Assembly: GCA_017619445.1 (NCBI GenBank)
Contig: JAFZSI010000079.1
Span: forward strand, 1-60,912
Reading direction: 5' to 3'
Origin: Prevotella sp.
GTDB taxonomy: Bacteria > Bacteroidota > Bacteroidia > Bacteroidales > Bacteroidaceae
DNA length: 60,912 bases
The notes below the pieces were generated by a model. That model had not been told where the DNA came from, did no database searches, and saw only the letters and a list, made by a program, of their open reading frames with translations. Shown piece by piece: positions 6,161-59,285 of this stretch. Position numbers and translations under genes: made by a program. The number at the start of each line of letters is the position of its first letter. The first letter of the stretch is position 1.

Positions 6161-6280
6161 TATGTTAGTATGTTACTATGTCTGAAAACCATTACTATGT
6201 CTTATGTTAGTATGTTACTATGTCTGAAAGCCCATGTTACTTTGTCCAAGCCAAGGTTAGCCTGTCTAAAGCGTAGCGTT
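6161..6280. repeat. 21-bp-period array (two exact-spaced 30-bp copies, then degenerate units)
   Basis: A 30-bp sequence beginning TATGTTAGTATGTTACTATG occurs at 6161-6190 and again at 6203-6232. The two copies are 42 bp apart (2 x 21) and differ at one base. More degenerate 21-bp units follow (CCAAGCCAAGGTTAGCCTGT, then AAAGCGTAGCGTTGCGGTTG) and lead straight into the TCTAGA module at 6293. The same ACTATGTCTRAAA motif recurs at 47.5 kb, 48.1 kb and 60.74 kb. Of the 520-base gap between the HU gene and mraZ, this array and the next two entries account for about half; the rest shows no gene. Confidence 0.75.
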
Positions 6281-6281
6281 G

Positions 6282-6335
6282 CGGTTGAATTTTCTAGAAA
6301 ATCTGAGCGCAAAGTTAGGGTTTGTTTTCGGCATG
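6282..6335 (+). repeat. TCTAGA palindromic module, copy 1
   Basis: The core TCTAGA lies at 6293-6298 within AATTTTCTAGAAAATCTGAG and is followed after exactly 12 bases by AAAG. The same TCTAGA-N12-AAAG arrangement occurs in five other copies in the window (16.76, 23.60, 33.55, 59.11 and 59.22 kb), and with AAAC at 10.99 kb. Confidence 0.8.
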
Positions 6336-6494
6336 GCAAAATATGCGGGCGTAACGGGCATGTTAACGGTGGTTAACAAGGGAATATGAGAATTTGAGGC
6401 GTATTGAGAAGGCTTCCGAACAAAGGAAATCGGGTTAGGAGTTGGGTGATAAAATGGTGGCAAATCAAGAAAATAGCACATTTTAAGAAAAAAA

Positions 6495-6537
6495 GTGGGA
6501 AAAAGTGGAGGATTGTGGGGAAAAATATGTAACTTTG
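6495..6537 (+). promoter_or_regulatory. Candidate MraZ operator (three 10-bp-spaced GTGGR boxes) and -7 promoter element
   Basis: GTGGGA at 6495-6500, GTGGAG at 6505-6510 and GTGGGG at 6515-6520 sit at exactly 10-base spacing. This matches the known MraZ operator type, TGGGN repeats separated by five bases, ahead of mraZ operons. A Bacteroidota -7 element (TAACTTTG, 6530-6537) follows immediately, so bound MraZ would cover the promoter. The distance to the mraZ start is 93 bases. A clear -33 TTTG at the usual distance is absent. Autoregulation by MraZ is inferred from the family. Confidence 0.65.
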
Positions 6538-6630
6538 AGGCCGAATTCCGATTGTTATATGCTGAAATGGCTTGGCCATGAAAGAGCCGCGTGAGAAAAG
6601 CGGCGGATTCATCGGACATTTGGTTGGATT

Positions 6631-7077
6631 ATGCATTTTTTAGGCAACATAGAAGCAAAGATTGACTCGAAGGGCAGGGCTTTTCTTCCTGCCGCTTTCC
6701 GCAAGGTGCTCGACAACGGGCACTGCGCTCAGTTGGTGCTGCGCAAGGACATCCATCAGGACTGCCTTGTGCTGTATCCCGATGTGGTCTGGAACATGCA
6801 GATGGACGTGCTGCGGGCATCGCTGAACCGCTGGAACAAGGAGCATCAGCAGATATTCCGCCAGTTTGTGGCCGACGCCGAGCTGATAGAGCTCGACGGC
6901 AACGGCCGTTTCCTGATTCCCAAGCGTTACCTGAAGATGGCGCACATAGAGCAAAGCCTGAAATTCGTGGGCGTTGACGACACCATAGAGATATGGAGCA
7001 ACGACGCTGGCAGCCAGCCGTTTATGGAAGCCGACGAATTCAGCAAGGCCATGGAAAGCATCATGGGCAAAGCGTGA
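6631..7077 (+). CDS. mraZ: MraZ, transcriptional regulator at the head of the dcw cluster
   Basis: The protein has 148 residues, the usual MraZ length. It carries two tandem AbrB-like half-domains: residues about 5-50 (GNIEAKIDSKGRAFLPAAFR) and about 80-125 (DAELIELDGNGRFLIPKRYL). Each contains the family's signature DxxGR-hydrophobic-xP motif. MraZ forms a ring that binds direct repeats in front of its own operon and also restrains the neighbouring RsmH. Three candidate binding boxes lie at 6495-6520. It is the first of 13 codirectional genes and is followed 27 bases later by rsmH. Confidence 0.97.
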   Translation: MHFLGNIEAKIDSKGRAFLPAAFRKVLDNGHCAQLVLRKDIHQDCLVLYPDVVWNMQMDVLRASLNRWNKEHQQIFRQFVADAELIELDGNGRFLIPKRYLKMAHIEQSLKFVGVDDTIEIWSNDAGSQPFMEADEFSKAMESIMGKA

Positions 7078-7104
7078 GCATTAGTACTCTCTTCATAACC
7101 GCGT

Positions 7105-8049
7105 ATGACAATCACCGCCGACAGCTATCATGTTCCTGTTCTCCTGCGGGAGAGCGTTGACGGGCTTTCAGTGAGGCCCGACGGCATTTACGTTGACGTG
7201 ACCTTCGGCGGTGGCGGTCATAGCACAGAGATTCTGAGCCGTCTGGGCGCGGACGGCCGTCTGTTTGGCTTCGACCAGGACGAGGATGTGCTGGGGCGCG
7301 TGCCGCGCGACAGCCGTTTTACGTTTGTGCGCAGCAACTTCCGCTACCTGCACAACTGGATGCGCTACTACGGCGTGGAGCAAATAGACGGTTTATTGGC
7401 CGATTTAGGCGTGTCGAGCCACCATTTTGACGACGAAAGCCGAGGTTTCTCGTTCCGTTTCGACGCACCGTTGGACATGCGCATGAACCGGCGGGCGCCA
7501 GTAACGGCAGCCGACATTGTGAACGGCTACGACGAGCAGCAGCTGGCCGACGTTTTCTGGCTCTATGGCGAACTGAGACAGTCGCGGCGCATGGCTGCAC
7601 GCATCGTAAAGGCGCGCGCCAAGCACAGGATTGAGACCACGCGCGACTTCATCGCAGCCGCCACGGGCCGAGAGCTGGGCGGCAACGGTGACGAACTGAC
7701 CGAGAGCCACGAGAAGAAAGACATGGCGCGGCTGTTTCAGGCGCTGCGCATTGAGGTGAACCACGAGATGAGCGCCTTGCAGGAGATGCTCGCAGCAGCC
7801 ACCAACCTGCTACGCCCGGGTGGACGGCTGGTAGTCATCACCTATCACTCGTTGGAGGACCGCATGGTGAAAAACGTGATGAAATCGGGAAATATTGAGG
7901 GGCGTGTGAAGCAGGATTTCTTCGGACGCGCCGAATCGCCCTTCACGTTGGTGAACAACAAGGTGACTACGCCAAGCCCCGAGGAGCAGGCGGCCAATCC
8001 GCGCAGCCGAAGCGCCAAACTGAGGGTGGCGGAAAGGGTTGCTGAGTGA
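7105..8049 (+). CDS. rsmH: RsmH, 16S rRNA (cytosine-1402 N4) methyltransferase
   Basis: The protein has 314 residues and the full family layout. It starts YHVPVLLRE and has the S-adenosylmethionine loop GGGGHS at residues 35-40. It also has DLGVSSHHFD near residue 101 and the C-terminal NPRSRSAKLRVAERV. The enzyme methylates C1402 in the P site of the 30S subunit. The gene lies between mraZ and ftsL, its conserved position in dcw clusters. The stop overlaps the first bases of a heptamer array. Confidence 0.97.
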   Translation: MTITADSYHVPVLLRESVDGLSVRPDGIYVDVTFGGGGHSTEILSRLGADGRLFGFDQDEDVLGRVPRDSRFTFVRSNFRYLHNWMRYYGVEQIDGLLADLGVSSHHFDDESRGFSFRFDAPLDMRMNRRAPVTAADIVNGYDEQQLADVFWLYGELRQSRRMAARIVKARAKHRIETTRDFIAAATGRELGGNGDELTESHEKKDMARLFQALRIEVNHEMSALQEMLAAATNLLRPGGRLVVITYHSLEDRMVKNVMKSGNIEGRVKQDFFGRAESPFTLVNNKVTTPSPEEQAANPRSRSAKLRVAERVAE

Positions 8050-8098
8050 GGAGTTAGGAATTAGGAGTTAGGAGTTAAGAGATAAGGGTTAGGAGTTT
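8049..8098. repeat. 7-bp tandem array, GTTAGGA type
   Basis: Units read in a strict 7-base register between rsmH and ftsL: GTTAGGA, ATTAGGA, GTTAGGA, GTTAAGA, GATAAGG, GTTAGGA, GTTTTGA. The array fills nearly the whole gap and ends about 10 bases before the ftsL start codon. Confidence 0.8.
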
Positions 8099-8108
8099 TG
8101 AACTATTT

Positions 8109-8726
8109 ATGAGCGACGAGATAAAAGACACGAAGAACGACGAGCTGAAGACGCAAGCTGCGACAGACAGCGAACTGAAGGCGCAGGCGGCATCGGGCGA
8201 CAAGGACACCAGCATGGAGGAACAGACCATTGTTCCGCCACAAACGCTGGTGAAAGGCCGCAGGAATGCCCGCAAGGTAAGCGTCGAAGCTGTGGAGAAC
8301 GACGAGACCGAGGACGAGGACGAGGAATTGGACGACGAGGACTTCGGCACAGCCCTGAAAGAAGCCATTCAGGAACAGGCGCGCGAGGACGAGCCTACGC
8401 TCACGTCGAACATCACGCTCAGAAAGATTCTGGGCGGCGACTTCCTGACGGCATCGATGATCAGGCGCCAGATTGGCATCATTCTGATTATCGTGGCCTT
8501 CACCATCGTCTATATCTCCAACCGCTACAGCTGCCAGCACAACCTGCTGGAGATTGACCGTCTGAACAAAGAATTGCAGGATGCCAAGTACAAGGCACTG
8601 TCGTCGAGCAGCGCGCTCACCGAGAAATGCCGCGAGAGCCACGTGCTCGACATGCTGAAGGCCAACAACGACAGTCTGCTGCACATTGCCGACCAGCCAC
8701 CTTATATAATATACGTTCCAGAATGA
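8109..8726 (+). CDS. ftsL: FtsL-like division protein with a long acidic cytoplasmic N-terminus
   Basis: The protein has 205 residues. Residues 1-115 are a charged, low-complexity cytoplasmic part with a run of Asp/Glu (ETEDEDEELDDEDFG). A single membrane helix follows at about 122-137 (GIILIIVAFTIVYIS). A short periplasmic coiled coil (NLLEIDRLNKELQDAKYKAL) and a tail come after it. This is the FtsL/DivIC topology of the Bacteroidota family, whose N-terminus is longer than in E. coli FtsL. FtsL works with FtsQ and DivIC/FtsB to activate the FtsW-FtsI synthase. The gene overlaps ftsI by four bases (ATGA), which suggests translational coupling. The call rests mainly on topology and position. 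Confidence 0.85.
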   Translation: MSDEIKDTKNDELKTQAATDSELKAQAASGDKDTSMEEQTIVPPQTLVKGRRNARKVSVEAVENDETEDEDEELDDEDFGTALKEAIQEQAREDEPTLTSNITLRKILGGDFLTASMIRRQIGIILIIVAFTIVYISNRYSCQHNLLEIDRLNKELQDAKYKALSSSSALTEKCRESHVLDMLKANNDSLLHIADQPPYIIYVPE

Positions 8727-10888
8727 GTAGTTTGTTTGACAGAAAGAAAATCGTACCGCGCTACAAGATGATAGCCTACGTGATGCTGTTGCTCGGCATC
8801 ACCATCATCGCGCGTGCGCTCTACATCAGCACCGTCAAGCGCGACTACTGGATGCAGGTGGCCTCAAGACTGAAAAAAGACAGCGTGGTGGTGAAGCCCG
8901 TGCGTGGCAACATCCTGAGTTGCGACGGCAGGCTGATGGCCAGCTCGTTGCCCGAGTTCAAGATGTATATGGACTTCCAGGCACTGCAGGATGCGGGCAA
9001 CGACTCGCTGTGGCACGACAAACTGGACAGCATCTGCAACGGCCTCAACCAGATTTTCCCGGAGAAATCGGCGGCTGAGTTCCGCGCATTGCTGGAACAG
9101 GGTTACAACAAGAAGGCGCGCAACATGGCCATCTGGCCTAAGCGCGTGAACTACAGCACCTACACCGAGGTGAAGCGGCTGCCGGTGTTCAACCTCATCT
9201 CCTACAAGGGCGGATTCCACGCCGAGGAGTTCAACGCCCGCAAACGGCCCTTCGGAAGCTTAGGCTCGCGCACCGTGGGCGACATGTACGGTGCGAAAGA
9301 CACGGCCCGCTTCGGCCTGGAACTGTCGTACGACACCATTCTGCGCGGCACCAACGGACTGATTCACCGCAACAAGGTGCTCAACAAATACCTCGACATC
9401 ATGGACACGCCGCCCATTGACGGAGCCGACATCGTCACCACGCTCGACGTGGGCATTCAGGACCTTGCCGAGCGCGCTGTCATAGACGAGCTGCGCGAAA
9501 TCAACGGCAATGTGGGCGTGGCCATCGTCATGGAGGTGGCCACGGGCGACATCAAGGCCATCGTCAACATGGAAAAATGCATGATTGACGGCAAGGTGGA
9601 GTACCGCGAACTGAAAAACCATGCCGTGAGCGACTTGTTAGAGCCTGGCTCCGTGTTCAAGACCGCCTCGATGATGGTGGCACTCGATGACGGCATGTGC
9701 GACACTACAAAGATGATTGACACGGGCGGCGGCGTCTATCACATGCACGGACGCGACATGAAGGACCACAACTGGCGGCGCGGAGGCTACGGCCGCATCT
9801 CGCTGGCACGGGGTCTGGAGGTCAGCTCGAACATTGTGGTAAGCCGCATCATCGACGAATACTACGGTGCCCATCCCGAACGGTTTGTCAGCCGCATTCA
9901 CGACCTGGGCATTGCCGAAGACCTGCACATACCGCTCAAAGGCTCGAGCGCGGCGTGGATTCGCCGACCGAAAATGGACAAGACCGGCAAGCATTGGGCC
10001 AACTGGAGCAAGACGGCACTGCCCTGGATGAGCATAGGCTACGAGACACAGATTCCGCCCATCTCTACGCTGACGTTCTACAATGCCATAGCCAACAACG
10101 GCAAGATGGTGGCGCCGCGGTTTGTGAAGTGTGTGCAGAAGGACGGGCAGATTCTGCGCGAATACCCCGTGCGCGTCATCAAGGAGCACATTGCCAAGCC
10201 GCAGACGGTGAAGACCATTCAGACCATCCTGGAGCATGTGGTGAGCCAGGGCCTTGGCCGCAAGGCCGGGTCGCAGTCGTTCAAGGTGGCAGGCAAGACC
10301 GGCACGGCCCAGATTGCCAAGGGCGGCGGCTATCACACGGGTACGGTGAACTATCTGCTGAGTTTCGCAGGTTTCTTCCCCGCCGACGCGCCACGCTACA
10401 GCTGCATTGTGTGCATACAGAAGTCTGGACTGCCCGCATCGGGCGGCGGCATGAGCGGCGTGGTGTTCCATCACATAGCCGAGGGCATCATGGCGCAGAA
10501 CCTCAAGCTCAGCGTGGTTGACGCCAAAGACTCGGCATCGGTGTTGCTGCCCGACATCAAGAGCGGCAACATTCTGGCCGCCGACTATGTGCTGTCGCAC
10601 CTGAACATCAGGGCCGACGACGGCTGGAACGGCAAATTTGCCGAGGGCGCGCCCATCTGGGGCCGCGGCGTGATGAACAGCCACGCCGTACAGTTAGAGA
10701 AAGTGAAGCACTATGGCAATGCCCACATTCCCGACGTGCGCGGCATGGGTGCGCGCGATGCTGTGTTCCTCATAGAGAGCCGCGGCGTGAAAGTACGCAT
10801 CGAAGGGCGTGGTAAAGTGACCGAACAGAGTCTCCCGCCGGGCCATGCCATCAAGAAAGGCGAGACCTGCACGCTCAAACTCAAGTGA
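8723..10888 (+). CDS. ftsI: FtsI/PBP3, septal peptidoglycan transpeptidase with PASTA domain
   Basis: The protein has 721 residues from the ATG that overlaps the ftsL stop. An in-frame upstream start at 8627 would read through ftsL and is rejected. A membrane anchor is at about residues 14-34. The PBP dimerisation domain follows, then the transpeptidase with SVFK (Ser310 nucleophile, Lys313), SSN at 368-370 and KTGT at 525-528. The last 60 residues form a PASTA-like domain (IPDVRGMGARDAVFLIESRG), common in Bacteroidota FtsI. The enzyme cross-links septal peptidoglycan made by FtsW. It lies between ftsL and murE as usual for the cluster. Confidence 0.97.
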   Translation: MSSLFDRKKIVPRYKMIAYVMLLLGITIIARALYISTVKRDYWMQVASRLKKDSVVVKPVRGNILSCDGRLMASSLPEFKMYMDFQALQDAGNDSLWHDKLDSICNGLNQIFPEKSAAEFRALLEQGYNKKARNMAIWPKRVNYSTYTEVKRLPVFNLISYKGGFHAEEFNARKRPFGSLGSRTVGDMYGAKDTARFGLELSYDTILRGTNGLIHRNKVLNKYLDIMDTPPIDGADIVTTLDVGIQDLAERAVIDELREINGNVGVAIVMEVATGDIKAIVNMEKCMIDGKVEYRELKNHAVSDLLEPGSVFKTASMMVALDDGMCDTTKMIDTGGGVYHMHGRDMKDHNWRRGGYGRISLARGLEVSSNIVVSRIIDEYYGAHPERFVSRIHDLGIAEDLHIPLKGSSAAWIRRPKMDKTGKHWANWSKTALPWMSIGYETQIPPISTLTFYNAIANNGKMVAPRFVKCVQKDGQILREYPVRVIKEHIAKPQTVKTIQTILEHVVSQGLGRKAGSQSFKVAGKTGTAQIAKGGGYHTGTVNYLLSFAGFFPADAPRYSCIVCIQKSGLPASGGGMSGVVFHHIAEGIMAQNLKLSVVDAKDSASVLLPDIKSGNILAADYVLSHLNIRADDGWNGKFAEGAPIWGRGVMNSHAVQLEKVKHYGNAHIPDVRGMGARDAVFLIESRGVKVRIEGRGKVTEQSLPPGHAIKKGETCTLKLK

Positions 10889-10945
10889 GTTTGGAGTTAA
10901 GAACTACGAGTTACGAGTTTAAAGTTACGAGTTACGAGAATAAAC
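10889..10945. repeat. 7-bp tandem array, GTTACGA type
   Basis: Between ftsI and murE the units GTTTGGA, GTTAAGA, ACTACGA, GTTACGA, GTTTAAA, GTTACGA, GTTACGA follow one another in a 7-base register. The unit differs by one or two bases from the GTTAGGA array after rsmH. Confidence 0.75.
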
Positions 10946-10980
10946 CTAAGGTTTACGGCAACAAAGAATAGAGTTGGACC

Positions 10981-11014
10981 TAAATTTTCTAGAAAATATG
11001 AAACTAAACGAGTT
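10981..11014 (+). repeat. TCTAGA palindromic module, copy 2, merged with the murE start
   Basis: TCTAGA lies at 10988-10993 in AAATTTTCTAGAAAATATG. The murE ATG (10998) occupies the place where other copies have TTTG or TCTG. After the usual 12 bases the copy reads AAAC in place of AAAG, which is already murE codon 4. The module therefore overlaps the first codons of an essential gene. Confidence 0.65.
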
Positions 11015-12449
11015 GCTTAAAAACATCGCGCCGCTGAACATCGTCGGGAAGACCGACGTTGAGATTACTGGCATCAACATTGACTCGCGGCGCATTGCGC
11101 CCGGCCATATCTTCGTGGCCATCAAGGGAACTCAGGTGGACGGGCATACGTTTATCGGCAAGGCCGAGGAGCAGGGCGCGGCTGCCGTGCTGTGCGAAGC
11201 TGTGCCCGCAACGCCGAAGGAGGGTGTCACCTACGTGCAGGTGGCCTCTACCGAGGATGCCGTGGGGCGCGTGGCAACGGTTTTCTATGGCGAGCCGTCG
11301 AAGAAGCTCCGCCTGGTGGGCGTGACGGGCACCAACGGCAAAACCACCATCGCCACCTTATTATATAATATGTTCCGCCGCATGGGCCACAAGTGCGGCC
11401 TGCTGTCCACGGTGTGCAACTACATTGAGGACGAGCCGATTGCGGCAAGCCACACCACGCCCGACCCCATTGAGCTGAATGCCTTGCTGGCCCGCATGGT
11501 GGATGCCGGCTGCGAATATGCGTTCATGGAGTGCAGCAGCCATGCCATCGACCAGAAACGCATTGGCGGGCTGACGTTTGCTGGGGGTATCTTCACCAAC
11601 CTGACGCGCGACCACATGGATTACCACAAAACCGTGGAGAACTATCGCAACGCCAAGAAGGCATTCTTCGACGCGCTGCCCAAAACTGCCTTCGCCCTGA
11701 CCAACGCCGACGACAAGAATGGCATGGTGATGCTGCAGAACACCAAGGCAATGAAAAAGACCTACTCCACGCGCGGCATGGCCGACTTCAGAGCGCGCAT
11801 ATTGGAGTGTCATTTCGAGGGAATGTATCTCGAAATAGACGGTCACGAGGTTGGCGTTCAGTTCATTGGAAAGTTCAACGTAAGCAATTTGTTGGCCGTT
11901 TATGGCGCTGCGGTGCTGTTGGGCAAGAAACCCGAAGACATTCTTTTAGTGATGAGCACGCTGAAAAGCGTGAGCGGACGGTTGGAACCCATCCACTCGC
12001 CCGAGGGATTCACGGCCATTGTGGATTATGCCCACACGCCCGACGCACTGGAGAATGTGCTCAACGCCATTCACGAGGTGCTCAACGGCAAGGGACGCGT
12101 CATCACCGTCTGCGGTGCCGGCGGCAACCGCGACAAGGGTAAGCGCCCGCTGATGGCCCAGGAAGCCGTCAAACAGAGCGACAAGGTGATTATCACGAGC
12201 GACAACCCTCGTTTCGAGGAGCCTCAGGACATCATCAACGACATGCTGGCGGGTCTCAATGCCCAGCAAATGAAACGTGTGCTCAGCATTGCCGACCGTC
12301 GCGAGGCCATCCGCACCGCCTGTATGTTGGCACAGAAGGGCGATGTGATTCTCATTGCCGGCAAAGGCCACGAGGACTATCAGGAGATTAAGGGCGTGAA
12401 GCACCACTTCGACGACCGCGAGGAAGTACGCAAGATTTTTGCCCAATAA
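10998..12449 (+). CDS. murE: MurE, UDP-MurNAc-tripeptide synthetase (meso-DAP adding)
   Basis: The protein has 483 residues from the ATG at 10998. An alternative TTG at 10974 would translate the palindromic repeat (DLNFLEN) and is rejected. It is a three-domain Mur ligase with the ATP loop GTNGKTT at 111-117. The central domain has TTPDPIELN, and the C-terminal domain has the DNPR motif at 402-405. DNPR is the family marker for meso-diaminopimelate over lysine. The enzyme adds meso-DAP to UDP-MurNAc-L-Ala-D-Glu in the cytoplasm. It is followed by mraY; no murF lies between them or elsewhere in the window. Confidence 0.97.
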
Positions 12450-12517
12450 GCCCCCGCAAACCTGCTGACAGATAAAGAGAATTGTAAATAGTTAATCAGT
12501 AAATAGTCAATAAGAAG

Positions 12518-13789
12518 ATGTTATACTATCTGTTTCGATTTCTTGAGCAATACGACATACCGGGTGCGCACGTCTGGTCGTACATTTCGTTCCGCGCCAT
12601 TCTCACATTGATTTGCTCGCTGCTGATTTCGGCATGGTTCGGCGAGCATTTCATCAAGTACATGAAACGCAGGAAAATTGCCGAGACGGCTCGCGACGCG
12701 AGCATCGACCCCTTCGGCACGCAGAAGAAAGGCGTTCCCACCATGGGCGGCATCATCATCATCGTGTCGATACTGGTGCCGGTGCTGCTGCTCGGCCGTA
12801 TGCGCAACATCTATCTCATCCTGATGATTATCACCACCATCTGGCTGGGATTCCTGGGCTTTATGGACGACTATATCAAGATTTTCCGCCACGACAAAGA
12901 GGGTTTGAAAGGCAAATACAAGATAGTTGGCCAGGTGTCGATAGGCTTCATCGTGGGTATTGTGCTCTACCTGAGTCCCGATGCGGTGGTTCGCGAGAAT
13001 GTAAGTGTGCCTAAGACAACACAGGAGGTGGTGGTGAAACACGAACAACAGGCGGTGAAATCGCTTAAAACGACGGTTCCGTTCTTTAAAAACCACAACC
13101 TCGACTACTCGCAGGTGATGTCGTTCTTCGGCAAGCACCGTTCGGGAGCCGGATGGGTGCTGTTTGTGCTGATGACCATCCTGGTGGTGACGGCCGTTTC
13201 CAACGGAGCCAACCTGAACGACGGCATGGACGGCATGTGTGCGGGCAACGCGGCCATTGTTGGGGTGGCCTTGGGCATATTGGCCTACGTGTCGGCGCAC
13301 GTGGGCTTTGCCAGTTATTTCGACATCATGTATATTCCTGGCTCTCAGGAGTTGGTGATTTTCATGTGCGCGTTTGTCGGGGCCATGATTGGTTTCCTGT
13401 GGTACAATGCCTTCCCCGCCCAGGTGTTTATGGGCGACACGGGCTCATTGACCATTGGCGGCATCATCGGTGTGTGCGCCGTCATCATCCACAAGGAGTT
13501 GCTGTTGCCCATTCTCTGCGGCATCTTCTTCGTTGAGAGCCTGAGCGTCATCATACAGACGCAGATGTTCAAATACTACAAGCGCAAGGGGCAGCGAGTG
13601 AGGGTTTTCCGTGCCACACCCATCCACGACAACTTCCGCAAACTGGACTCTCAGCTCGACGAGACCAGTCGCTATATTTTCAAGAACTGGCCCGAGCGCC
13701 AGTTCCACGAGTCGAAAATCACTTTCCGCTTCTGGATTGTGACCATCATCCTTGCCGCCCTGACCATCATCACGCTGAAGATGAGATAA
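12518..13789 (+). CDS. mraY: MraY, lipid I synthase, with a variant HHH motif
   Basis: The protein has 423 residues, longer than the roughly 360 of E. coli. It is a polytopic membrane enzyme that moves phospho-MurNAc-pentapeptide onto undecaprenyl phosphate. Recognisable sites are GFMDDYIK (the DDxxK-type active-site region), NLNDGMDG and MGDTGSLTIGG. A periplasmic or loop insertion of about 60 residues (VPKTTQEVVVKHEQQAVKSL onward) explains much of the extra length. The cytoplasmic motif that is normally HHH reads PIHDNF here (His370, Asp371, Asn372) and is followed by a further insertion. The first, most important His is kept. Identity is certain; the variant motif may be a lineage trait. 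Confidence 0.96.
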   Translation: MLYYLFRFLEQYDIPGAHVWSYISFRAILTLICSLLISAWFGEHFIKYMKRRKIAETARDASIDPFGTQKKGVPTMGGIIIIVSILVPVLLLGRMRNIYLILMIITTIWLGFLGFMDDYIKIFRHDKEGLKGKYKIVGQVSIGFIVGIVLYLSPDAVVRENVSVPKTTQEVVVKHEQQAVKSLKTTVPFFKNHNLDYSQVMSFFGKHRSGAGWVLFVLMTILVVTAVSNGANLNDGMDGMCAGNAAIVGVALGILAYVSAHVGFASYFDIMYIPGSQELVIFMCAFVGAMIGFLWYNAFPAQVFMGDTGSLTIGGIIGVCAVIIHKELLLPILCGIFFVESLSVIIQTQMFKYYKRKGQRVRVFRATPIHDNFRKLDSQLDETSRYIFKNWPERQFHESKITFRFWIVTIILAALTIITLKMR

Positions 13790-13870
13790 TGAGAATACAG
13801 AATTAAACGACATAACGAAATTTCGGCATTTCAACATTTCGACACAACGACAAAAAAGTTAAACAAGAAT

Positions 13871-15202: not shown

Positions 15203-15203
15203 G

Positions 15204-16600: not shown

Positions 16601-16612
16601 GTGGCAGGCAGC

Positions 16613-16738
16613 AAGGCACGAAACAAATAGACCAAGGCACGAGATAAAAACAGCAAAGCACGGAATAAAAACAACAAAGCATAGAGATAAGACAATAAAG
16701 CATAGAGTTGAAACAACAAAGCATTGAACGGGCGAAAC
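16613..16738. repeat. 21-bp tandem array, six units, downstream of ftsW
   Basis: Units starting AAGGCACGA, AAGGCACGA, AAAGCACGG, AAAGCATAG, AAAGCATAG and AAAGCATTG begin at 16613, 16634, 16655, 16676, 16697 and 16718. The spacing is 21 bases every time. A seventh degenerate unit (AAACCATTGC) leads into the TCTAGA module at 16764. The array and module occupy most of the 328-base gap between ftsW and murG; the murG promoter fills the end. Confidence 0.85.
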
Positions 16739-16754
16739 AAACCATTGCTTTATT

Positions 16755-16800
16755 GCAAAATTCTCTAGAAAATTTGAATGTAAAGTAAGCCGTTGTTTTC
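16755..16800 (+). repeat. TCTAGA palindromic module, copy 3
   Basis: TCTAGA lies at 16764-16769 in AAATTCTCTAGAAAATTTG, followed after 12 bases by AAAG. It directly continues the 21-bp array. Confidence 0.8.
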
Positions 16801-23465: not shown

Positions 23466-23650
23466 GCGATGCGTCGCGTTGTAAAAACAATGCGTCGCGT
23501 AGCAAAAACAATGTGCTACTTCAGCGACGCAAAGCAAAGGTTTATAAAAACAAAGTATAGGTTTACAAATCCAAAGTATAGGTTTACGATTAAATTCTCT
23601 AGAAAATTTGCAGGTAAAGCATTGCATTGTGAAAACGATGTGAAGGTATG
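23466..23650 (+). repeat. 21-bp-period array with TCTAGA module, copy 4
   Basis: Consecutive 21-base units read ATGCGTCGCGTTGTAAAAAC(A), ATGCGTCGCGTAGCAAAAAC(A), ATGTGCTACTTCAGCGACGC(A), AAGCAAAGGTTTATAAAAAC(A), AAGTATAGGTTTACAAATCC(A) and AAGTATAGGTTTACGATTAA(A). TTCTCTAGAAAATTTGCAGG(T) comes next with TCTAGA at 23598-23603, and then AAAGCATTGCATTGTG. The module is itself one unit of the array. The 500-base gap between ftsZ and the C10 peptidase gene contains this, two terminators and no gene. Confidence 0.85.
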
Positions 23651-23847: not shown

Positions 23848-25578
23848 CTACTTGAGCACCTTTTTCACGGTCTTTCCGTTCTTGAGCATCAGGATACCGT
23901 TGGCGGGAACGTCGTCAAGACTGAAAGACTTCGCAGGAGCCTCATAGACTTTCTGTCCGGCGGCGTTATAGACGCGTGTCATGCCGTCGCCGTTGTTTGT
24001 GGTGATGCTGCTCAGGCGGATTTGCTCAATGCCCGTCTGAGCTGTCCAGTTGGCGTTTTTCTCGTCCTTCAGCGAGATTTTGCTTCCGTTGATGGTGAGC
24101 AGGTAGCTGTTGCTGTTGCTCTCGTGGCAGCGGATGGGCTGCGGCTCGACGTCCTTCGAGGTATCGAAGGAGGCCATGTAGATGCGGTAGGTGCCGTCTT
24201 CTGTCAGCGCGTTGGACACATTGATGCCACTGAAATCGAGGTTACGATAGTAGCAGTTTCCGTTCTCGTCCTCGTTGAGGTACTCTATGCGTTCCACGCT
24301 CTTCGAACTGAGCTCTACGGTTTCGCCTGTGGCAAGATTCTGCGCCATGAGCATAAGATTGCCGGTGAATGTATGGTAGTCGAAGTTCATGACGTATGCG
24401 CTGGCACTGATTTTGCCGGTACGATAGCTGGCTGTCATACCATCATACGTGCCCCAGAAAGACTGGAAGGTAACGTCCTCATCATTTTTACGAACGAGCA
24501 CCATTTCCTGACCCAGGGTGTATCCGTTGAGCGAGGCAATGTCGAAATAACCGTCGGACTTGCCTTCCCAACCCCAGTTGACATGCACCTGGCCGTCTTT
24601 GTTATAGCCGTCGAGCACAAACTCGTGGCCACTTCCGTTGGTGCCTTTGTTTGCACCGTAGAGAACGGGATGGCGGTCGCTGAGCTCGAAGTAGATTTTC
24701 TCCATCCACTCGTCAACGGGGAACGTTTCACGAACGTAGTAGTGCTGATTTTCGTTGTAGTAGAAACGTTTGCTCAGCACGTCGGCAGCGTCGTGGGTGA
24801 AGGCACCACTACCCGAACGGGTGTATTGCATCTTCACAGCATAGCCGCAGTGCTTCATGAGCGTGGAAACGGCGTCGCGCTGAGCCTGTGTCCATGACTT
24901 GCCTTTATAAACAGGCAGCATATTGTCCCAGTCGTAAGGCTTCTTGGCCAGATTGTCAGAGAGTTTCTGCGAGGCATCGCTTCCTTCGGGCGTGAAATAG
25001 TAGGAGATGGAACCTTTTCCTTTCTCGGGCCAGCGGTGGAAGTACATGATTTGCGCCATGGCTGTGGCCACACAGCCAGTGACATAGTGCACCTCTGTGC
25101 CGCCACTGTTGTAGGTGGGAGTCTGGTCGTTGAACGGTGTGTCCTGTCCCCATTGCGACACCATCAGTTCGGTTACACTCTCAGGCAGGCCTGCATCGGC
25201 AGGGCTGACGGCCTTGAGGGGTATGCCGTGGGCAGCATTGTAGGCCAGTTGCTCGTTCATGGCATCGAGCCACCAGCGGAAACCGGGGGCCATGTCGTTC
25301 TCGTCGAGTGCGCGGTCGGAATAGCCGAGCACAGGGTTAAACATGTCGTCGTTGGCAATGACAGCAAAGCCTGCCTCGCAGCCGACGATGGTGAGCTGCT
25401 GGCGCTCCTCAATGACGCGCATCTGCATTTGTGCCGGCACGCGCTTGAGTCCGTTAGCACTGTACTGTGCGGCAATGGCCGTGCGGGCAGCCGTAAACAT
25501 TTCTTGCTGACTGCGCTGTTTTGCCGTTACTGAAACTGCTCCTACCAAGAGGAGGAGGAAAAGAATTCTTGCTCTCAT
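23848..25578 (-). CDS. C10-family (streptopain-like) cysteine peptidase with T9SS tail
   Basis: The protein has 576 residues: a signal peptide (to about residue 19), then a Spi/pro-domain-like region (about 20-125), then the peptidase. The catalytic Cys is in VTGCVATAMAQ (Cys169) and the His in GSGHEFVLDGY (His318); NWGWEGKSDGYF follows. These are the marks of clan CA family C10, which includes streptopain, interpain A and the periodontain/PrtT group. The final residues (RVYNAAGQKVYEAP to VKKVLK) are a short T9SS sorting domain, so surface display or secretion is likely. The gene is monocistronic, with its own terminator and a 15-bp hairpin in its leader. Confidence 0.93.
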   Translation of the reverse strand: MRARILFLLLLVGAVSVTAKQRSQQEMFTAARTAIAAQYSANGLKRVPAQMQMRVIEERQQLTIVGCEAGFAVIANDDMFNPVLGYSDRALDENDMAPGFRWWLDAMNEQLAYNAAHGIPLKAVSPADAGLPESVTELMVSQWGQDTPFNDQTPTYNSGGTEVHYVTGCVATAMAQIMYFHRWPEKGKGSISYYFTPEGSDASQKLSDNLAKKPYDWDNMLPVYKGKSWTQAQRDAVSTLMKHCGYAVKMQYTRSGSGAFTHDAADVLSKRFYYNENQHYYVRETFPVDEWMEKIYFELSDRHPVLYGANKGTNGSGHEFVLDGYNKDGQVHVNWGWEGKSDGYFDIASLNGYTLGQEMVLVRKNDEDVTFQSFWGTYDGMTASYRTGKISASAYVMNFDYHTFTGNLMLMAQNLATGETVELSSKSVERIEYLNEDENGNCYYRNLDFSGINVSNALTEDGTYRIYMASFDTSKDVEPQPIRCHESNSNSYLLTINGSKISLKDEKNANWTAQTGIEQIRLSSITTNNGDGMTRVYNAAGQKVYEAPAKSFSLDDVPANGILMLKNGKTVKKVLK

Positions 25579-33385: not shown

Positions 33386-33504
33386 CGTTGGCAATTGTTT
33401 GGTGGTTGAATGCAGCGCTTGTGGGCCGCATACTGCATAGAAAACGACGGCGCGGCCGTTTTATTGCGCTTTAGAATCCTAAACCAACGCTTTGTTTTTC
33501 CATC

Positions 33505-33597
33505 TATATGCTTTACGGGCGTAAAGTGCAGGTTTATGTATAAATTCTCTAGAAAATTTGCGCGTAAAGTGCAACTTTGTTTCCGGCACTCAAATCT
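33505..33597 (+). repeat. TCTAGA palindromic module, copy 5, with flanking 21-bp units
   Basis: TCTAGA lies at 33548-33553 in AAATTCTCTAGAAAATTTG, followed after 12 bases by AAAG. The next unit AAAGTGCAACTTTG can fold on itself (AAAGT-GCA-ACTTT). Upstream units start AAACCAACG and AAAGTGCAGG at about 21-base spacing. The 600-base stretch 33386-33985 contains this and no convincing gene. Confidence 0.75.
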
Positions 33598-52235: not shown

Positions 52236-52236
52236 T

Positions 52237-52947
52237 TTACCAAACATATTTGACACCTAACTTACCTGAAGTTTCATATTTGCTGGCCAACTGGCTCATA
52301 CTGCCGGCAGGGCGGATGTTGAACTCGCCAAAGAGCTTCATCTGCTTCATTAGCGGGGCATAGAAGTTCAGACCCCAGTTGATGTTCCAGTTCTCGTAGT
52401 AGAAATCATCGTAGTTGCGGAAGAACACACCAATGTTCCACGAGTGCCATCGGGGACGGATATGTGCACCAAAGCCGAAAGTAAAAGTCAAAGGCTCACT
52501 ATAGCCGAAGTCCAACGTCTGGAAATGGATATACGACTCACCTACGCGGAGGAAGAAGTAAGGCATCTCCCAGGTTATAGAGAGATTACCCACCGTCTCA
52601 TTGGTGTTCCATCGGTTATAGCGGTTGTACATTACCTTGCCGTCTAAATAGAATTCGCTCCAGCCAATGGGCAGCCGATAACCACCGTGAACAGCATTCG
52701 AATAGAGTTGCTTGCCAAACTGAGCCTGGGCATCGACAGCTACATGCCAACGGTCCGTGAAATGCCTCTGATAAGAGAGTGCTATTCCCCCGAAGCCTCC
52801 CGTAACCACATTGCGTCCGCCCATGACGTAACCCGTCATCTCATTCTTATGGCTGCCGTCGTATCGGTGAAGGCCATTATAGGCATTCTGCGCTTGCAAT
52901 GACATCACAGCGAAGACCAGAACTATTAAAAATACACCTTTTTTCAT
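52237..52947 (-). CDS. Outer-membrane beta-barrel protein
   Basis: The protein has 236 residues with a signal peptide (VFLIVLVFAVMSLQAQ). Many aromatic amphipathic strands follow (GGIALSYQRHFTDRWHVAVD, EMPYFFLRVGESYIHF, PRWHSWNIGVFFRNYDDFYY), and the end is SGKLGVKYVW with a C-terminal Trp. About ten to twelve strands fit the length. It is coupled to the metallophosphoesterase gene downstream, which suggests a shared surface role. No specific family was recognised. Confidence 0.7.
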   Translation of the reverse strand: MKKGVFLIVLVFAVMSLQAQNAYNGLHRYDGSHKNEMTGYVMGGRNVVTGGFGGIALSYQRHFTDRWHVAVDAQAQFGKQLYSNAVHGGYRLPIGWSEFYLDGKVMYNRYNRWNTNETVGNLSITWEMPYFFLRVGESYIHFQTLDFGYSEPLTFTFGFGAHIRPRWHSWNIGVFFRNYDDFYYENWNINWGLNFYAPLMKQMKLFGEFNIRPAGSMSQLASKYETSGKLGVKYVW

Positions 52948-53017
52948 TTACTATTTTCGGATTATTATGTTTTACTCAAGGAACTTATTTACTTTGAGAA
53001 TGAAGAATTATCAATTA

Positions 53018-54193: not shown

Positions 54194-54199
54194 TTACAA

Positions 54200-54345
54200 T
54201 TGGACAATTTAAGGAATTTACAATTTGACAATTTTTTCGCGGAGCTCAAGGAACTCCAATTTACAATTTATTGTTACATTTGACAATTTGACAATTCTCT
54301 TCCCTCCCTTTGGGAGGGTTGGGGTGGGTTCTTGGGTTCCTCCTT
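54200..54345. repeat. AATTGTA heptamers, CCTTGAGC element and CCCTCCC hairpin
   Basis: The gap between the PAP2 and DUF4421 genes is made of repeat pieces. AATTTACAATTTGACAATTT heptamers surround the reverse CCTTGAGC element (54229-54258), which matches the ftsW start region. The CCCTCCC/GGGAGGG hairpin (54302-54318) follows. Confidence 0.7.
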
Positions 54346-54350
54346 TTCTC

Positions 54351-56162: not shown

Positions 56163-56192
56163 TTATTAATGTAATAATGTGGCAAAGTTACG

Positions 56193-56576
56193 AAAAATCT
56201 GAGTAAGTAAGTGCATAGAAAACTTGTTTTCTTTGCCGAACGTGAAGATTTTATGCAAAAATCTGAGTAAGTAAGAGCAAAGAAAGCTCGTTTTCTTTGC
56301 CGAACGTGAAGATTTTATGCAAAAATCTGAGTAAGTGAGAGCAAAGAAAGCTCGTTTTCTTTGCCGAACGTGAAGATTTTATGCAAAAATCTGAGTAAGT
56401 AAGAGCAAAGAAAGCTCGTTTTCTTTGCCGAACGTGAAGATTTTATGCAAAAATCTGAGTAAGTAAGTGCAAAGAAAGCTCGTTTTCTTTGCCGAACGTG
56501 AAGATTTTATTAAAAATCTGAGTAAGTAAGTGCATAGAAAGCTTATTTTCTTTGCCGAACGTGAAGATTTTATCTA
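56193..56576. repeat. Six-copy 64-bp tandem repeat
   Basis: The word AAAATCTGAGTAAGTRAG recurs with ATCT at 56197, 56261, 56325, 56389, 56453 and 56516, that is, every 64 bases (63 for the last). Each unit contains an AGAAA.C..GTTTTCT-type inverted repeat and a constant TTTGCCGAACGTGAAGATTT. It fills most of the 479-base divergent gap between the PAP2 and GH53 genes. There are no unique spacers, so it is not CRISPR. Confidence 0.92.
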
Positions 56577-56606
56577 ATAAGCGAGCAAAAAACCAAGAGA
56601 ATCTTG

Positions 56607-56614
56607 TATCTTTG
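56607..56614 (+). promoter_or_regulatory. Bacteroidota -7 element of the GH53 gene
   Basis: TATCTTTG matches TAnnTTTG exactly, 28 bases before the ATG at 56642. No clear -33 TTTG is at the expected distance; the end of the 64-bp array lies there. Confidence 0.6.
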
Positions 56615-56641
56615 CACACAACAACTACTAACACAAATCAG

Positions 56642-57868
56642 ATGATGAAGAAAACGTGGATGTTCTTTCTGCTTTTGGTTGCACCTGTGCTCAATGCCAC
56701 GGCACAGACCACTCAGTTTGCCCGTGGGGCAGACATCAGCTGGGCAACAGAGATGGAGGCCGATGGTCGTGTGTTCCGCAATGCCAATGGTGAGGTGACA
56801 GACATTTTTGCACTTATGGGGCAAATAGGCATGAGTGCCGTGCGCCTGCGGGTATGGGTGAATCCTGAGAGATTTGGCTATGGGCCGTGGAGCGACAAGG
56901 CTGATGTCATTGCCAAGGCAAAACGTGCCCATGCCCAAGGGCTCGACGTAATGATAGACTTCCACTATAGCGATTTTTTCGCCGACCCGGGCAACCAGCG
57001 AGTGCCTCTCGACTGGGAGGGCTACACCATGGAGCAGCTCAAAACAGCTGTGGCCAACCACACGAAAGACGTGCTGCAAACGCTGAAAGACGAGGGCATC
57101 AATCCGAAGTGGGTACAGGTGGGCAACGAGACCAACAGCGGTATGCTCTGGGATTACGGCAAAATTGACTGGAACAAAAGCGGCAGCAACCGCTTCACCA
57201 ACTATGCTGCGGTAAGCAATGCCGGCTACGATGCCGTGAAAGCAGTATTCCCCGATGCCTATGTCATTGTCCACATCGGCGGAGCCCACAACGTGGCCGA
57301 TTATGATGGATGGTTCTTCAAAGAGTTTCGCGCTGCAGGCGGCAAGTTCGACATGATTGGCCTCTCCCACTATCCCGACTACAACAACTGGAGCAGCACC
57401 CAGCACGATGTTGTCAGCAACCCCAATGCCGAGGCGGGTGTGAAAACCATAGGCGAGCTGTTTGGCGTTCCCGTAATGATTTGCGAGACAGGTTTCAGTA
57501 ACTACGACCCGAAGAAAGCCTCAACAGTCATGCACGACCTGATGGCCCACATGAAAGCCATTCCCCATTGTGCGGGCGTGTTCTATTGGGAACCACAGGT
57601 AGATGGCCAATGGAAACCAGACTATTACAACCAGTTAGGATGGGGAGCCTACGGTATGGGAGCATTTACTACCGACGGAAAGCCCACAGCCGCCCTCGAT
57701 GCCTTCCGCGACGAAACCGACGGCATCGAAAACAATAACCGTGAAACAATAACCTATAACCGTTCTGCTGAGCAATGGTTCGACCTGCAGGGCCGTCGGC
57801 TCCACGCTCCGCAGAAAGGACTGACGATAGTAAAACTGGGGCAGCATAGTCGTATAATGAATAATTGA
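56642..57868 (+). CDS. GH53 arabinogalactan endo-beta-1,4-galactanase
   Basis: The protein has 408 residues from ATGATG at 56642; the longer frame from 56552 would translate the 64-bp repeat and promoter. The signal peptide is MFFLLLVAPVLNATA. The family-53 barrel has RGADISWATEMEADG, RLRVWVNPE, DFHYSDFFADPG, the acid/base Glu in QVGNETNSGMLW (Glu163) and the nucleophile Glu in ICETGFSNYD (Glu282). The last 35 residues (SAEQWFDLQGRRLHAPQKGL) resemble a short T9SS tail, so it may be secreted. It would cut beta-1,4-galactan side chains of pectin. It lies 16 bases before the acyltransferase gene. Confidence 0.95.
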   Translation: MMKKTWMFFLLLVAPVLNATAQTTQFARGADISWATEMEADGRVFRNANGEVTDIFALMGQIGMSAVRLRVWVNPERFGYGPWSDKADVIAKAKRAHAQGLDVMIDFHYSDFFADPGNQRVPLDWEGYTMEQLKTAVANHTKDVLQTLKDEGINPKWVQVGNETNSGMLWDYGKIDWNKSGSNRFTNYAAVSNAGYDAVKAVFPDAYVIVHIGGAHNVADYDGWFFKEFRAAGGKFDMIGLSHYPDYNNWSSTQHDVVSNPNAEAGVKTIGELFGVPVMICETGFSNYDPKKASTVMHDLMAHMKAIPHCAGVFYWEPQVDGQWKPDYYNQLGWGAYGMGAFTTDGKPTAALDAFRDETDGIENNNRETITYNRSAEQWFDLQGRRLHAPQKGLTIVKLGQHSRIMNN

Positions 57869-57884
57869 TGAATCGAAATCATAC

Positions 57885-59066
57885 ATGGACAAAAACAACA
57901 CATATCTCGCCTCAAAGCCGCGCTATGAGATTCTCGATGGACTGCGCGGCGTTGCCGCCACGCTCGTTGTGGCCTACCATCTGTTTGAAACCTATTACAG
58001 CGGCAAGCCCAACCAGCCGATAAACCACGGCTATCTGGCCGTCGATTTCTTTTTCGTACTGTCGGGCTTCGTTGTCGGCTATGCCTACGACGACCGCTGG
58101 GACAAGATGTCCACATGGAACTTCGTCAAGCGCCGTCTCATCCGCCTGCATCCCATGGTGATATTCGGCACCCTGTTCGGAGCCATCATGTACTACTTCA
58201 GCAGTTGCTCAACCTTTCCGCTCATCAACAACACACCGTGGTACATGGTGGTGTTCGTCATGCTCTGGTGCTTCACCATGATACCCCTGCCCAACACCAT
58301 GGACATCCGCGGCTGGGCCGAGACCAACCCCCTCAACGGCCCCGCATGGTCGTTGCAATGGGAATACGTGGCCAACCTGCTCTATGCGCTCGTCTTCCGC
58401 AGGCTCTCGAAGACTGCCCTCGCCCTGTGCGTCGCCCTCTTTGCCCTGCTCACCATCATTCTCTGCCTCAACATCGACGTGTTCGGATTCCTCGAGGAGC
58501 GCTCCTGGGCCGCCTACACCGTCGTTGGCGGATGGAGCACCACGCCCGGACAGTTGCAGGTGGGCCTCACCCGTCTGCTCTACCCCTTCTTCTGCGGACT
58601 GCTGCTCTCGCGCATGGGCTGGCTCATCAGGGTGAAGGGCGGATTCTGGTGGTGCTCGCTCATCATTGTCATTCTCTTCTGCATGCCCTGGCTCGGCATG
58701 GGCACCGAGGGACAGGCCCGCATCACCAACGGCATCTACGAGGCATGCTGCATCCTCGTCGCCTTCCCTCTCATCGTCGCCATCGGCGCAGGCAGCAGCG
58801 TAAAGGGCGGAAAGTCTGAAGCCATCAACCGGTTCCTCGGCGACATTTCCTACCCCCTCTACATCACCCACTATCCGCTCATCTACATGCAGATGTCGTG
58901 GGTTGACAGCCACAAGGACGCACCCCTCGCCACCCACATCTTCGTCGCCCTCTGCATATTCACCCTCGCCATCCTGGTGGCCTGCGCATCCTACAAGCTC
59001 TACGACCTGCCCGTCCGCACCTGGCTCCGCAACAGGCTGTTCAGGCCTGCCAATACAAATCCGTAG
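57885..59066 (+). CDS. Acyltransferase 3 (OafA/NodX type) membrane protein
   Basis: The protein has 393 residues with about ten membrane helices. The family motif is at the N-terminus: YEILDGLRGVAATLVVAYHL, then HGYLAVDFFFVLSGFVVGYA with the conserved Arg and His residues. The end has the typical ISYPLYITHYPLIYM. Such enzymes move acetyl or other acyl groups onto extracytoplasmic sugars. It is coupled to the GH53 gene, which suggests work on a surface glycan or modification of galactan fragments. Confidence 0.92.
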   Translation: MDKNNTYLASKPRYEILDGLRGVAATLVVAYHLFETYYSGKPNQPINHGYLAVDFFFVLSGFVVGYAYDDRWDKMSTWNFVKRRLIRLHPMVIFGTLFGAIMYYFSSCSTFPLINNTPWYMVVFVMLWCFTMIPLPNTMDIRGWAETNPLNGPAWSLQWEYVANLLYALVFRRLSKTALALCVALFALLTIILCLNIDVFGFLEERSWAAYTVVGGWSTTPGQLQVGLTRLLYPFFCGLLLSRMGWLIRVKGGFWWCSLIIVILFCMPWLGMGTEGQARITNGIYEACCILVAFPLIVAIGAGSSVKGGKSEAINRFLGDISYPLYITHYPLIYMQMSWVDSHKDAPLATHIFVALCIFTLAILVACASYKLYDLPVRTWLRNRLFRPANTNP

Positions 59067-59104
59067 AGAAACGCCGCCCGCCCAGCGTCAGGGTTTACCA
59101 TTGA

Positions 59105-59179
59105 ATTATCTAGAGAATCTGAGCACAAAGCCGCGCTTTGTCTCCGCCAAGTAATGTTTGGGGAAGACAAAGCGCGGCT
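59105..59179. terminator. TCTAGA module, copy 6, with a 14-bp perfect hairpin
   Basis: TCTAGA lies at 59109-59114, with AAAG after 12 bases. AGCCGCGCTTTGTC (59129-59142) then pairs exactly with GACAAAGCGCGGCT (59166-59179). It sits 40-110 bases after the acyltransferase stop and ahead of the convergent sufB stop. It is a plausible bidirectional transcription end, though without a T-run. Confidence 0.6.
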
Positions 59180-59204
59180 CTGCTATACCAACTGCACGGT
59201 TTAG

Positions 59205-59285
59205 GATGAAATATTCTAGAGAATTTGTGCGTAAAGCATTGCTTTGCATTCGCCAAGTGATGCTTTATAGGAATAAAGCACGGCT
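59205..59285 (+). repeat. TCTAGA palindromic module, copy 7
   Basis: TCTAGA lies at 59215-59220 in AAATATTCTAGAGAATTTG, with AAAG after 12 bases. AAAGCATTGCTTTG (self-pairing AAAGCA/TGCTTT) and AAAGCACGGCTTT follow. It is 106 bases from copy 6, about 5 x 21. Confidence 0.75.

Follow-up and report, generated by a model that had tools for sequence, protein, structure and literature searches.

Palindrome-centered 21-bp arrays dispersed in the intergenic DNA of a Prevotella genome, with an HU-HIG protein as their candidate binding partner

What are the short repeat modules that recur between the genes of a 60,912-nucleotide stretch of a Prevotella sp. genome (contig JAFZSI010000079.1 of assembly GCA_017619445.1; the whole stretch is hereafter called the window), and which protein might recognize them? 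A preliminary description of this DNA had pointed out seven TCTAGA sites, each followed after 12 bases by AAAG or AAAC and partly in register with 21-bp tandem units. These sites lie where it placed them and are the only TCTAGA copies in the window, and the 12-base gap is present in 7/7 modules. We found that the conserved part of the module is a 16-bp palindrome, AATTYTCTAGARAATT (hereafter, the core), with 167 exact copies in the genome that holds the window (G000; 2.87 Mb, 81 contigs, 85% complete), and that it is linked, both across genomes and in position, to genes of an HU-HIG subfamily, one of which adjoins a core in the window. The preliminary description was incomplete in that it did not separate the conserved core from species-specific units and included neither the chromosomal spacing nor the adjoining HU-HIG gene. 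We propose, with about even confidence, that the modules serve as docking arrays on which an HU-superfamily protein of this subfamily would bind sequence-specifically, likely with a role in chromosome architecture.

By itself, TCTAGA is not in excess in the window (7 copies vs. a mean of 7.6 in shuffled sequences). An extended pattern with up to three mismatches matched the window 10 times, vs. 0 matches in 100 shuffles. Across G000, the pattern proposed earlier gave 93 exact matches (52 on the plus strand and 41 on the minus strand; reversed-pattern control, 0), and allowing at most three mismatches in a longer half-site pattern gave 386 (control, 0). The module is thus a dispersed one that occurs far outside the window, as had been proposed; neither of the outcomes named as refuting that proposal (i.e., no excess over shuffled sequence, or loss of the spacing beyond the window) was observed. 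Reading frames that cross the modules are repeat translations and not proteins, again in line with the preliminary description.

Counts of anatomy, location, and lattice were obtained from a G000 sample consisting of the window and 40 further stretches (834,514 bases). The 41 stretches were chosen in part for motif matches, so density figures are biased. Cores were counted as exact or with at most one or two mismatches to AATTYTCTAGARAATT, and counts differ among these classes; the sample contains 109 cores with up to two mismatches. In an alignment of the 102 cores with full flanks, conservation was symmetric, reading TTYTCTAGARAA and then dyad units on both sides, which replaces the earlier one-sided picture of the module.

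The exact core was found in 85 of 398 genomes of the same genus, 62 of which carry fewer than 10 copies, and the strict palindrome was found in 2 of 279 genomes from other genera of the family. The nearest relative of G000 among the 318 genomes scored (of 396; 78 were unscored) is G191, with 84% nucleotide identity over positions 10998 to 13789 of the window and 106 exact cores. It retains the core and the lattice described below, with units of the type AACTC-ACG-RCGTT, and another core-bearing genome, G202, has ATACAGCTAATA-type units. One gap common to G000 and G191 holds a two-core array in both genomes, built of different unit types.

The units form a strict lattice around the core. In G000, the centers of dyad units of the form AAAGC-NNN-GCTTT lie at distances of 22, 43, 64, 85, and 106 bases from the core midpoint on both sides. 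The 21-base register noted previously was borne out: of 146 distances of 18 to 45 bp between strict units in the sample, 145 were 21, 42, or 43 bp and one was 26 bp. The commonest longer distances were 63, 64, 84, 85, 105, 106, and 127 to 128 bp, with a stray value of 69 bp among the 14 commonest listed. For the arrays starting at positions 16612 and 23467, which had been described as exact tandem units, the spacing is exact and the sequence is not. Of the strict units, 230 are intergenic (1.57 per kb) and 19 are coding (0.03 per kb), compared with 59 in the reversed sequence. A core is found no more than 150 bp from 203 of the 230, and in-register clusters are without a core within 300 bp in 4 of 34 cases. 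Cores themselves follow the same register, with close pairs (up to one mismatch per core) at 43 + 21k bp in 22/25 cases in G000, 14/14 in G191, and 7/7 in G202 (19/25 in nine G000 contigs for cores with up to two mismatches).

The half-sites belong to a small dictionary (AAAGC, AAAGT, AAACC, AACTC, and AACGC/T), and both halves are in this dictionary for 239 of 863 register units. The preliminary description had seen AAAG stems that change but stay paired. This was not upheld, since perfect palindromes make up 44 of the 239 dictionary units, vs. 60.9 ± 6.3 expected from shuffling; the two halves of a unit show no covariation, and hairpin arms are therefore not general. Complementarity between the left and right arms of a given element is no greater than that between arms taken from different elements, and on this comparison a cruciform of both arms was rejected as a general rule and retained for a subset. 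Two-unit windows at unlinked G000 loci have a mean identity of 0.489 (column-shuffled, 0.490). Because unlinked units are on average no more identical than column shuffles, the half-site words seem to be selected in place.

A neutral minisatellite, in which slippage yields 21-bp repeats as in the heptad repeats of this genome, is in our view the least probable of the explanations weighed here. Heptads (7 × 3 = 21) do occur frequently in the gaps of the window, and one array adjoins element 2 (Table 1), but the genus-wide conserved core, the register kept in diverged units, the over-dispersion of the arrays, and the HU-HIG link (both described below) argue against it.

The sampled cores that could be classified are intergenic. 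With gene positions taken from an analysis-specific hexamer gene caller, 0/98 cores of the G000 sample (11 sites at stretch edges left out) and 0/45 cores of G191 fell within genes, although both genomes are more than 80% coding. The tetranucleotide CTAG at the center of the core is about 11-fold depleted in the G000 sample (150 copies vs. 1,689 expected from a first-order model), yet 93 of the 150 sit in cores (23 are coding); the core is therefore retained despite strong avoidance. The observed/expected ratio of CTAG was at most 0.34 in 60 of 64 further loci examined. GATC is likewise about 11-fold under-represented in the G000 sample (observed/expected ratio of 0.09, as for CTAG) and is near expectation in several relatives (e.g., loci L055 to L059).

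The arrays are also spaced apart along the chromosome. Among 76 distances between successive cores on nine G000 contigs, 25 were shorter than 400 bp, 50 were longer than 4 kb, and a single one, of 3,742 bp, lay in between. Intervals between elements were shorter than 4 kb in 1 of 46 cases (2%), vs. 21 to 27% when the 55 element-bearing gaps were placed randomly among real gaps (P ≤ 0.0005 at all six gap-length floors). The 4-kb limit was chosen post hoc from distance percentiles; tests of the 10th percentile and of the coefficient of variation (CV) are independent of it. For the 21 intervals of G191 (cores with up to two mismatches), the 10th percentile was 10.2 kb, vs. 3.6 to 4.6 kb expected (P = 0.0005 to 0.002), and the under-4-kb measure was weaker (P = 0.03 to 0.06). 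Array density in these two genomes is one per roughly 10 to 17 kb.

Placement relative to transcription raises the rival explanation that the elements are bidirectional transcription terminators or RNA structures, which we judge very unlikely. Among G000 gaps of at least 150 bp, elements are enriched in convergent gaps (17/34 vs. 47/204; p = 0.003). Whole-element hairpins across the core (z < -4) are formed by 7/25 elements in convergent gaps, 6/46 in tandem gaps, and 1/20 in divergent gaps (convergent vs. rest, p = 0.03). However, such stable hairpins amount to 14 of 91 elements and not to most copies, as would be the case for intrinsic terminators; the majority fold no better than shuffled sequences (median z of about -0.8 outside convergent gaps), unit palindromes are under-represented, 20/91 elements lie in divergent gaps, and no Rfam family reached its gathering score in the window. 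The strongly hairpin-forming subset of elements, commonest in convergent gaps, may act in transcription termination. Because the arrays are over-dispersed and occur in gaps of all three orientations, we favor chromosome organization over promoter control at most sites.

The candidate protein emerged from a 621-bp, 90% similarity between two element loci, which proved to comprise a gene with an upstream core; the gene is paralogous to that at positions 5504 to 6109 of the window. The window protein scores 53.9 bits against the Pfam HU-HIG model (cutoff, 26.2). In an AlphaFold2 model built from a 27-sequence alignment, residues 1 to 127 are confidently predicted (pLDDT, 92.6) to adopt an HU fold, for which the best solved structural match is PDB 4fmr (BVU_2165 of Bacteroides vulgatus), followed by HU, Hbb, and IHF chains. 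The HU-HIG profile also matches HU sequences (best E value, 1.1e-4). The protein thus belongs with the HU-HIG branch of the HU/IHF superfamily and differs from the other members in the invariant residues that its subfamily has of its own in the 27-sequence alignment and in its genomic association with one palindrome. Residues ~31 to 60 are by eye the most variable between genomes, with well-conserved flanks, and could be where a change of partner or specificity lies. HU-HIG domains have reportedly been described in print; a literature search, with most subscription papers outside its scope, found no publication on this subfamily.

HU-HIG profiles were compared between 30 of the 85 core-bearing genomes and 50 core-less genomes, sets fixed earlier for a query with a RAYT-like protein (see below); the former comprise all 23 genomes with at least 10 exact cores and 7 with 2 to 8. 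Any HU-HIG-like match (E ≤ 0.001) was present in 72 of the 80 genomes. Close homologs (E ≤ 1e-25; 44 to 100% identity) were present in 26/30 core-bearing vs. 0/50 core-less genomes (Fisher test, 4e-17) and in 22/23 genomes with at least 10 exact cores, the threshold having been chosen post hoc from the gap between 1.4e-26 and 1.1e-12, the latter being the best core-less match. Among the matches listed, G000 has seven close HU-HIG genes and G191 four, exceeding every other genome.

The link is positional as well. In G000, 6/6 testable close copies (the seventh lies at a contig end and is outside this count) have a core with up to two mismatches 153 to 343 bp upstream, compared with a base rate of 8.7% of genes. 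Such cores were found upstream in 23 of the 26 HU-HIG genomes, exact in 20: in 15 they precede the HU-HIG gene directly (within 600 bp in genomes other than G000), and in 8 they precede an operon in which HU-HIG follows a VapE gene. A core pair is located upstream of VapE at 9/9 loci with an uncut, same-strand VapE gene, a count in which G202 was known beforehand and one pair carries two mismatches per core. Upstream core pairs are 43 bp apart in G202, G218, G348, and G374 and 65 bp apart in the 12 others shown, and several enclose one or two units of ~21 to 22 bp, again with different words. In the VapE-type proteins, BT4734-like_N and VapE domains are present, and there are matches to phage helicases/primases as well as to a PrimPol model. 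In PADLOC, two scanned HU-HIG proteins had no match, and the VapE protein matched PrimPol and a DRT-associated model. The BT4734/VapE primase was rejected as the G000 binding factor: PF08800 has 0 matches in G000 (at 85% completeness), where cores and HU-HIG genes are plentiful. PF08800 also occurs in 7 of 17 core-less genomes of the same search. Inverted arrays of 10- to 12-bp iterons (CCTACAT..., CTGACAT..., AAGGTTGTC...) flank several 65-bp core pairs of other species, at L133, L136, L143 to L147, and L271, giving them an origin-like appearance, with or without VapE/HU-HIG genes nearby.

Several observations weigh against a docking role. Close HU-HIG homologs were not found in the core-bearing genomes G223, G329, G098, and G018, and the examined HU-HIG copies of G322 (two copies) and G217 have no core; the G217 core pair lies elsewhere, and the G333 locus is cut by a contig end. 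The six G000 adjacencies are not independent events, because the paralogs partly duplicate one gene-plus-core segment. Of the four G191 copies, one has an upstream core with one mismatch, one has a core with three mismatches, and two have none, and a distant HU homolog in the G000 sample (L046, 28% identity) has no upstream core. The interval CV is just mildly below random in G000 (P = 0.01 to 0.04) and not significantly so in G191 (P = 0.07 to 0.24; 0.14 to 0.24 for cores with up to two mismatches), where the convergent-gap preference is also absent (p = 0.56). AAA/TTT phasing at 10.5 bp is no stronger than in control intergenic DNA: 10.5-bp power appears in the mean profile, but per-sequence power is 2.15 vs. 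2.68 in the control, and special helical phasing was rejected. Among unlinked two-unit pairs there is a tail of similar arrays, with 1.4% sharing at least 26/34 positions vs. 0.04% under the null and 20 of 27,812 reaching 30/34 vs. 0. Finally, of 106 orthologous G000/G191 gaps, 10 hold a G000 core, and just 3 of these 10 hold a G191 core (vs. 0/96 core-less gaps). A fourth contains a degenerate G191 core with AAAG-type units. This positional orthology (p = 6e-4 for all 106 gaps, 0.02 for gaps of >150 bp, and 0.07 for gaps of >250 bp) is given no weight because its significance fades for longer gaps.

Some of these points fit the main rival, an unlikely but serious one, in which the arrays are non-autonomous offspring of a mobile PrimPol-helicase/HU-HIG element copied into intergenic DNA, with their spacing resulting from target immunity and their units being transposase or initiator sites. 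In other species, a core pair does head a PrimPol-helicase/HU-HIG unit with phage-type helicase/primase matches; some core pairs are flanked by the further inverted iterons, and dispersed pairs without these genes also exist. The patchy presence of the core across the genus, the gaps that differ from G191 by an entire element, the gene-containing similarity between two loci, and the tail of similar arrays point the same way. Mu cis-immunity, strongest near 5 kb and decaying to 25 kb (PMC7350765), has a range that resembles the exclusion zone between arrays. Against this rival, most unlinked arrays are no more alike than column-shuffled sequences, no consistent outer end appeared in the logo or the gap alignments, and the half-site and register constraint survives in diverged arrays. 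Given a mean identity at the null level together with a tail of similar pairs, most arrays are not recent copies and some are. When the 7 G000 element gaps lacking a G191 core were aligned, no clean empty site was seen by eye. Mu-transpos_C (PF09299) had matches in 0/25 genomes, and since controls likewise had none, the search is uninformative. A viral reservoir was sought in IMG/VR, where one contig (L271, 4.5 kb) has a core pair in the gap range searched, with genes that appear non-viral. A further 21 contigs have one strict core each; the flanks of L277, L281, and L282 resemble the G077 type, and the remaining cases look chance-like by eye.

A REP-like system in which a diverged RAYT-like Y1 transposase copies the palindromes is very unlikely. 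G000 encodes a RAYT-like protein (NCBIfam REP_Tyr_transpos, E = 1.1e-9, 38.3 bits against a cutoff of 80), such proteins occur in 23/30 core-bearing vs. 22/50 core-less genomes (p = 0.005), and a core adjoins 3 of 6 copies examined in G191 and G202. Against this, they are common in core-less genomes and were not found in G025, G088, G340, and G254 (18, 16, 18, and 11 cores, respectively), 0/14 copies examined in G077, G038, G274, and G223 have a nearby core, and the palindrome of the core has no loop and lacks a GTAG head. As a necessary partner, the RAYT-like protein was rejected on account of the core-bearing genomes without it and the copies without nearby cores. This RAYT-resembling Prevotella family (e.g., G000:C47:58982-60106) has an HUH-type HLH motif and a long C-terminal part and occurs in 45 of the 80 genomes, often in several copies.

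How might docking arrays of this kind work? A protein lattice is favored by the small half-site dictionary, the tightness of the register, the freedom of the middle bases, and the retention of CTAG. From the phylogenetic and positional association, we infer, as the simplest account of the data, that an HU-HIG dimer binds the 16-bp palindrome as its primary site. Further dimers, of HU-HIG or its paralogs, would load at the two-turn-spaced units, in register and on one face of the DNA, and the loaded lattice would form a stiff or wrapped nucleoprotein segment. Most core-bearing species have few copies, typically one of them in the control region of an HU-HIG gene or of a PrimPol-helicase (VapE)/HU-HIG operon, where the core would probably serve autoregulation in the former case and perhaps be part of an origin-like control region in the latter. 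In the lineage of the window and in G191, arrays would have spread from the control site of HU-HIG itself into intergenic DNA, where their most likely function would be in chromosome architecture or as topological insulators, a subset doubling as terminator-like hairpins. More speculatively, and rather doubtfully in our view, this may be a domesticated chromatin system: an HU-type protein with the array at its control site, derived from a mobile PrimPol-helicase/HU replicon, would have lost the replication gene, and after expansion to at least seven HU paralogs and hundreds of arrays it would now divide the chromosome into ~10-kb domains. Array words would then turn over while the core and two-turn lattice stay fixed, by analogy with fast-evolving satellites of conserved architecture.

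Systems that pair repeats scattered between genes with a nucleoid-type protein of their own are known in kind; MatP/matS, Noc/NBS, and similar ones are dedicated nucleoid proteins with dispersed cognate palindromes. Each ties one protein family to one palindrome repeated around the chromosome. Co-inheritance of the MatP/matS kind was seen here in 26/30 vs. 0/50 genomes. The arrays differ in that the predicted binding protein belongs to the HU superfamily and that 21-bp arrays with species-changing units occur once per ~10 to 17 kb.

REP/BIME elements, as described in PMC2817692, PMC3733652, PMC6379681, and PMC6907758, are similar in being intergenic palindromic repeats with more than 100 copies per genome, in forming mosaic arrays of species-differing sequence, and in being candidate topological insulators; BIMEs have been proposed as topological-domain boundaries (PMC6907758), and 167 exact cores with 0/98 in genes compare well with these numbers. 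REP units are stem-loops of 20 to 40 nucleotides tagged with GTAG or CGTC at one end and are associated with RAYT and gyrase/IHF, whereas our core is symmetric, loop-less, and untagged, its arrays follow an over-dispersed 21-bp lattice, and its candidate partner is HU-HIG rather than RAYT. BrickBuilt of Porphyromonas gingivalis, also from the Bacteroidetes, consists of intergenic tandem units of about two turns, with one copy adjoining a PF00216 DNA-binding gene; according to PMC4596501, it is a minisatellite miniature inverted-repeat transposable element with a 23-nucleotide unit, a leader and a tail with terminal inverted repeats, and 19 copies. The present arrays have instead a 21-bp lattice, core symmetry, and 167 exact cores, with no conserved outer ends in the logo and no leader, tail, or terminal inverted repeat seen. 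Strong gyrase sites and the Escherichia coli gyrase motif (PMC6379681) are likewise symmetric over ~130 bp with helically phased arms, but the arms here are species-specific half-site words whose AAA/TTT phasing is not above that of other intergenic DNA.

The preliminary description knew of no named element of this form, and the literature search mentioned above likewise found no description of the arrays. A nucleoid-type protein of Prevotella is here paired with recognizable arrays, spaced across the genome, as its candidate binding sites, which makes testable the question of which barriers split bacterial chromosomes into topological domains, one described as open in PMC6907758, as well as how dispersed arrays exchange words at unlinked places yet keep their architecture. 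If the predicted binding is true, the protein would be an HU paralog with strong sequence specificity, and the arrays would trace a route from the control site of a mobile replicon to chromosome architecture.

Table 1. Positions in the window of the HU-HIG gene and of the six array elements
Feature	Position	Strand	Core	Structure and context
HU-HIG gene	5504..6109	-		Candidate trans-acting factor, 201 amino acids; Pfam HU-HIG, HU fold, phylogenetic profile, adjacency; start ~187 bp from core of element 1
Element 1	6162..6371		6288-6303 (1 mismatch)	Arms in 21-bp register; gap between HU-HIG gene and first gene of cell-wall cluster; orthologous core in RUG107/G191 and UBA3776
Element 2	10899..10998		10983-10998 (1 mismatch)	Core abuts murE start codon, right half is coding sequence; left arm merges gradually into GAGTTAC heptads; G191 without core there
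Element 3	16612..16800		16759-16774	Seven 21-bp units left, one right; same gap has core with other units in UBA3776, none in G191
Element 4	23467..23635		23593-23608	Units left and right of core; ftsZ and peptidase C10 gene converge on this gap
Element 5	33480..33584		33543-33558	Orthologous G191 gap also holds core, with CGTGAG-type units
Element 6	59083..59292		59104-59119 (2 mismatches); 59210-59225 (1 mismatch)	Two cores 106 bp apart, units between and outside; convergent gap

The peptidase C10 gene that adjoins element 4 (positions 23848 to 25500, minus strand) encodes a Spi-type inhibitor prodomain. Near element 1, direct repeats of the GTGGGA/GTGGAG type precede the first gene of the cell-wall cluster (positions 6490 to 6530) and are kept in loci L049 and L053; we take them to resemble MraZ boxes. 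Heptad microsatellites (GAGTTAG and similar) occur in window gaps at 8044, 10894, 15239, 18036, 39745, 40991, and 55917, several right after a stop codon, and some gaps of the same cluster also carry heptad arrays in L049 and L053. A 64-bp unit is repeated in six head-to-tail copies with 96% matches at positions 56193 to 56573, and a similar unit adjoins a core at position 4464 of L037. At the left end of the window (positions 1 to 4722, minus strand), a large protein open at the window edge contains RHS and FG-GAP repeats and has a weak match to an SpvB domain.

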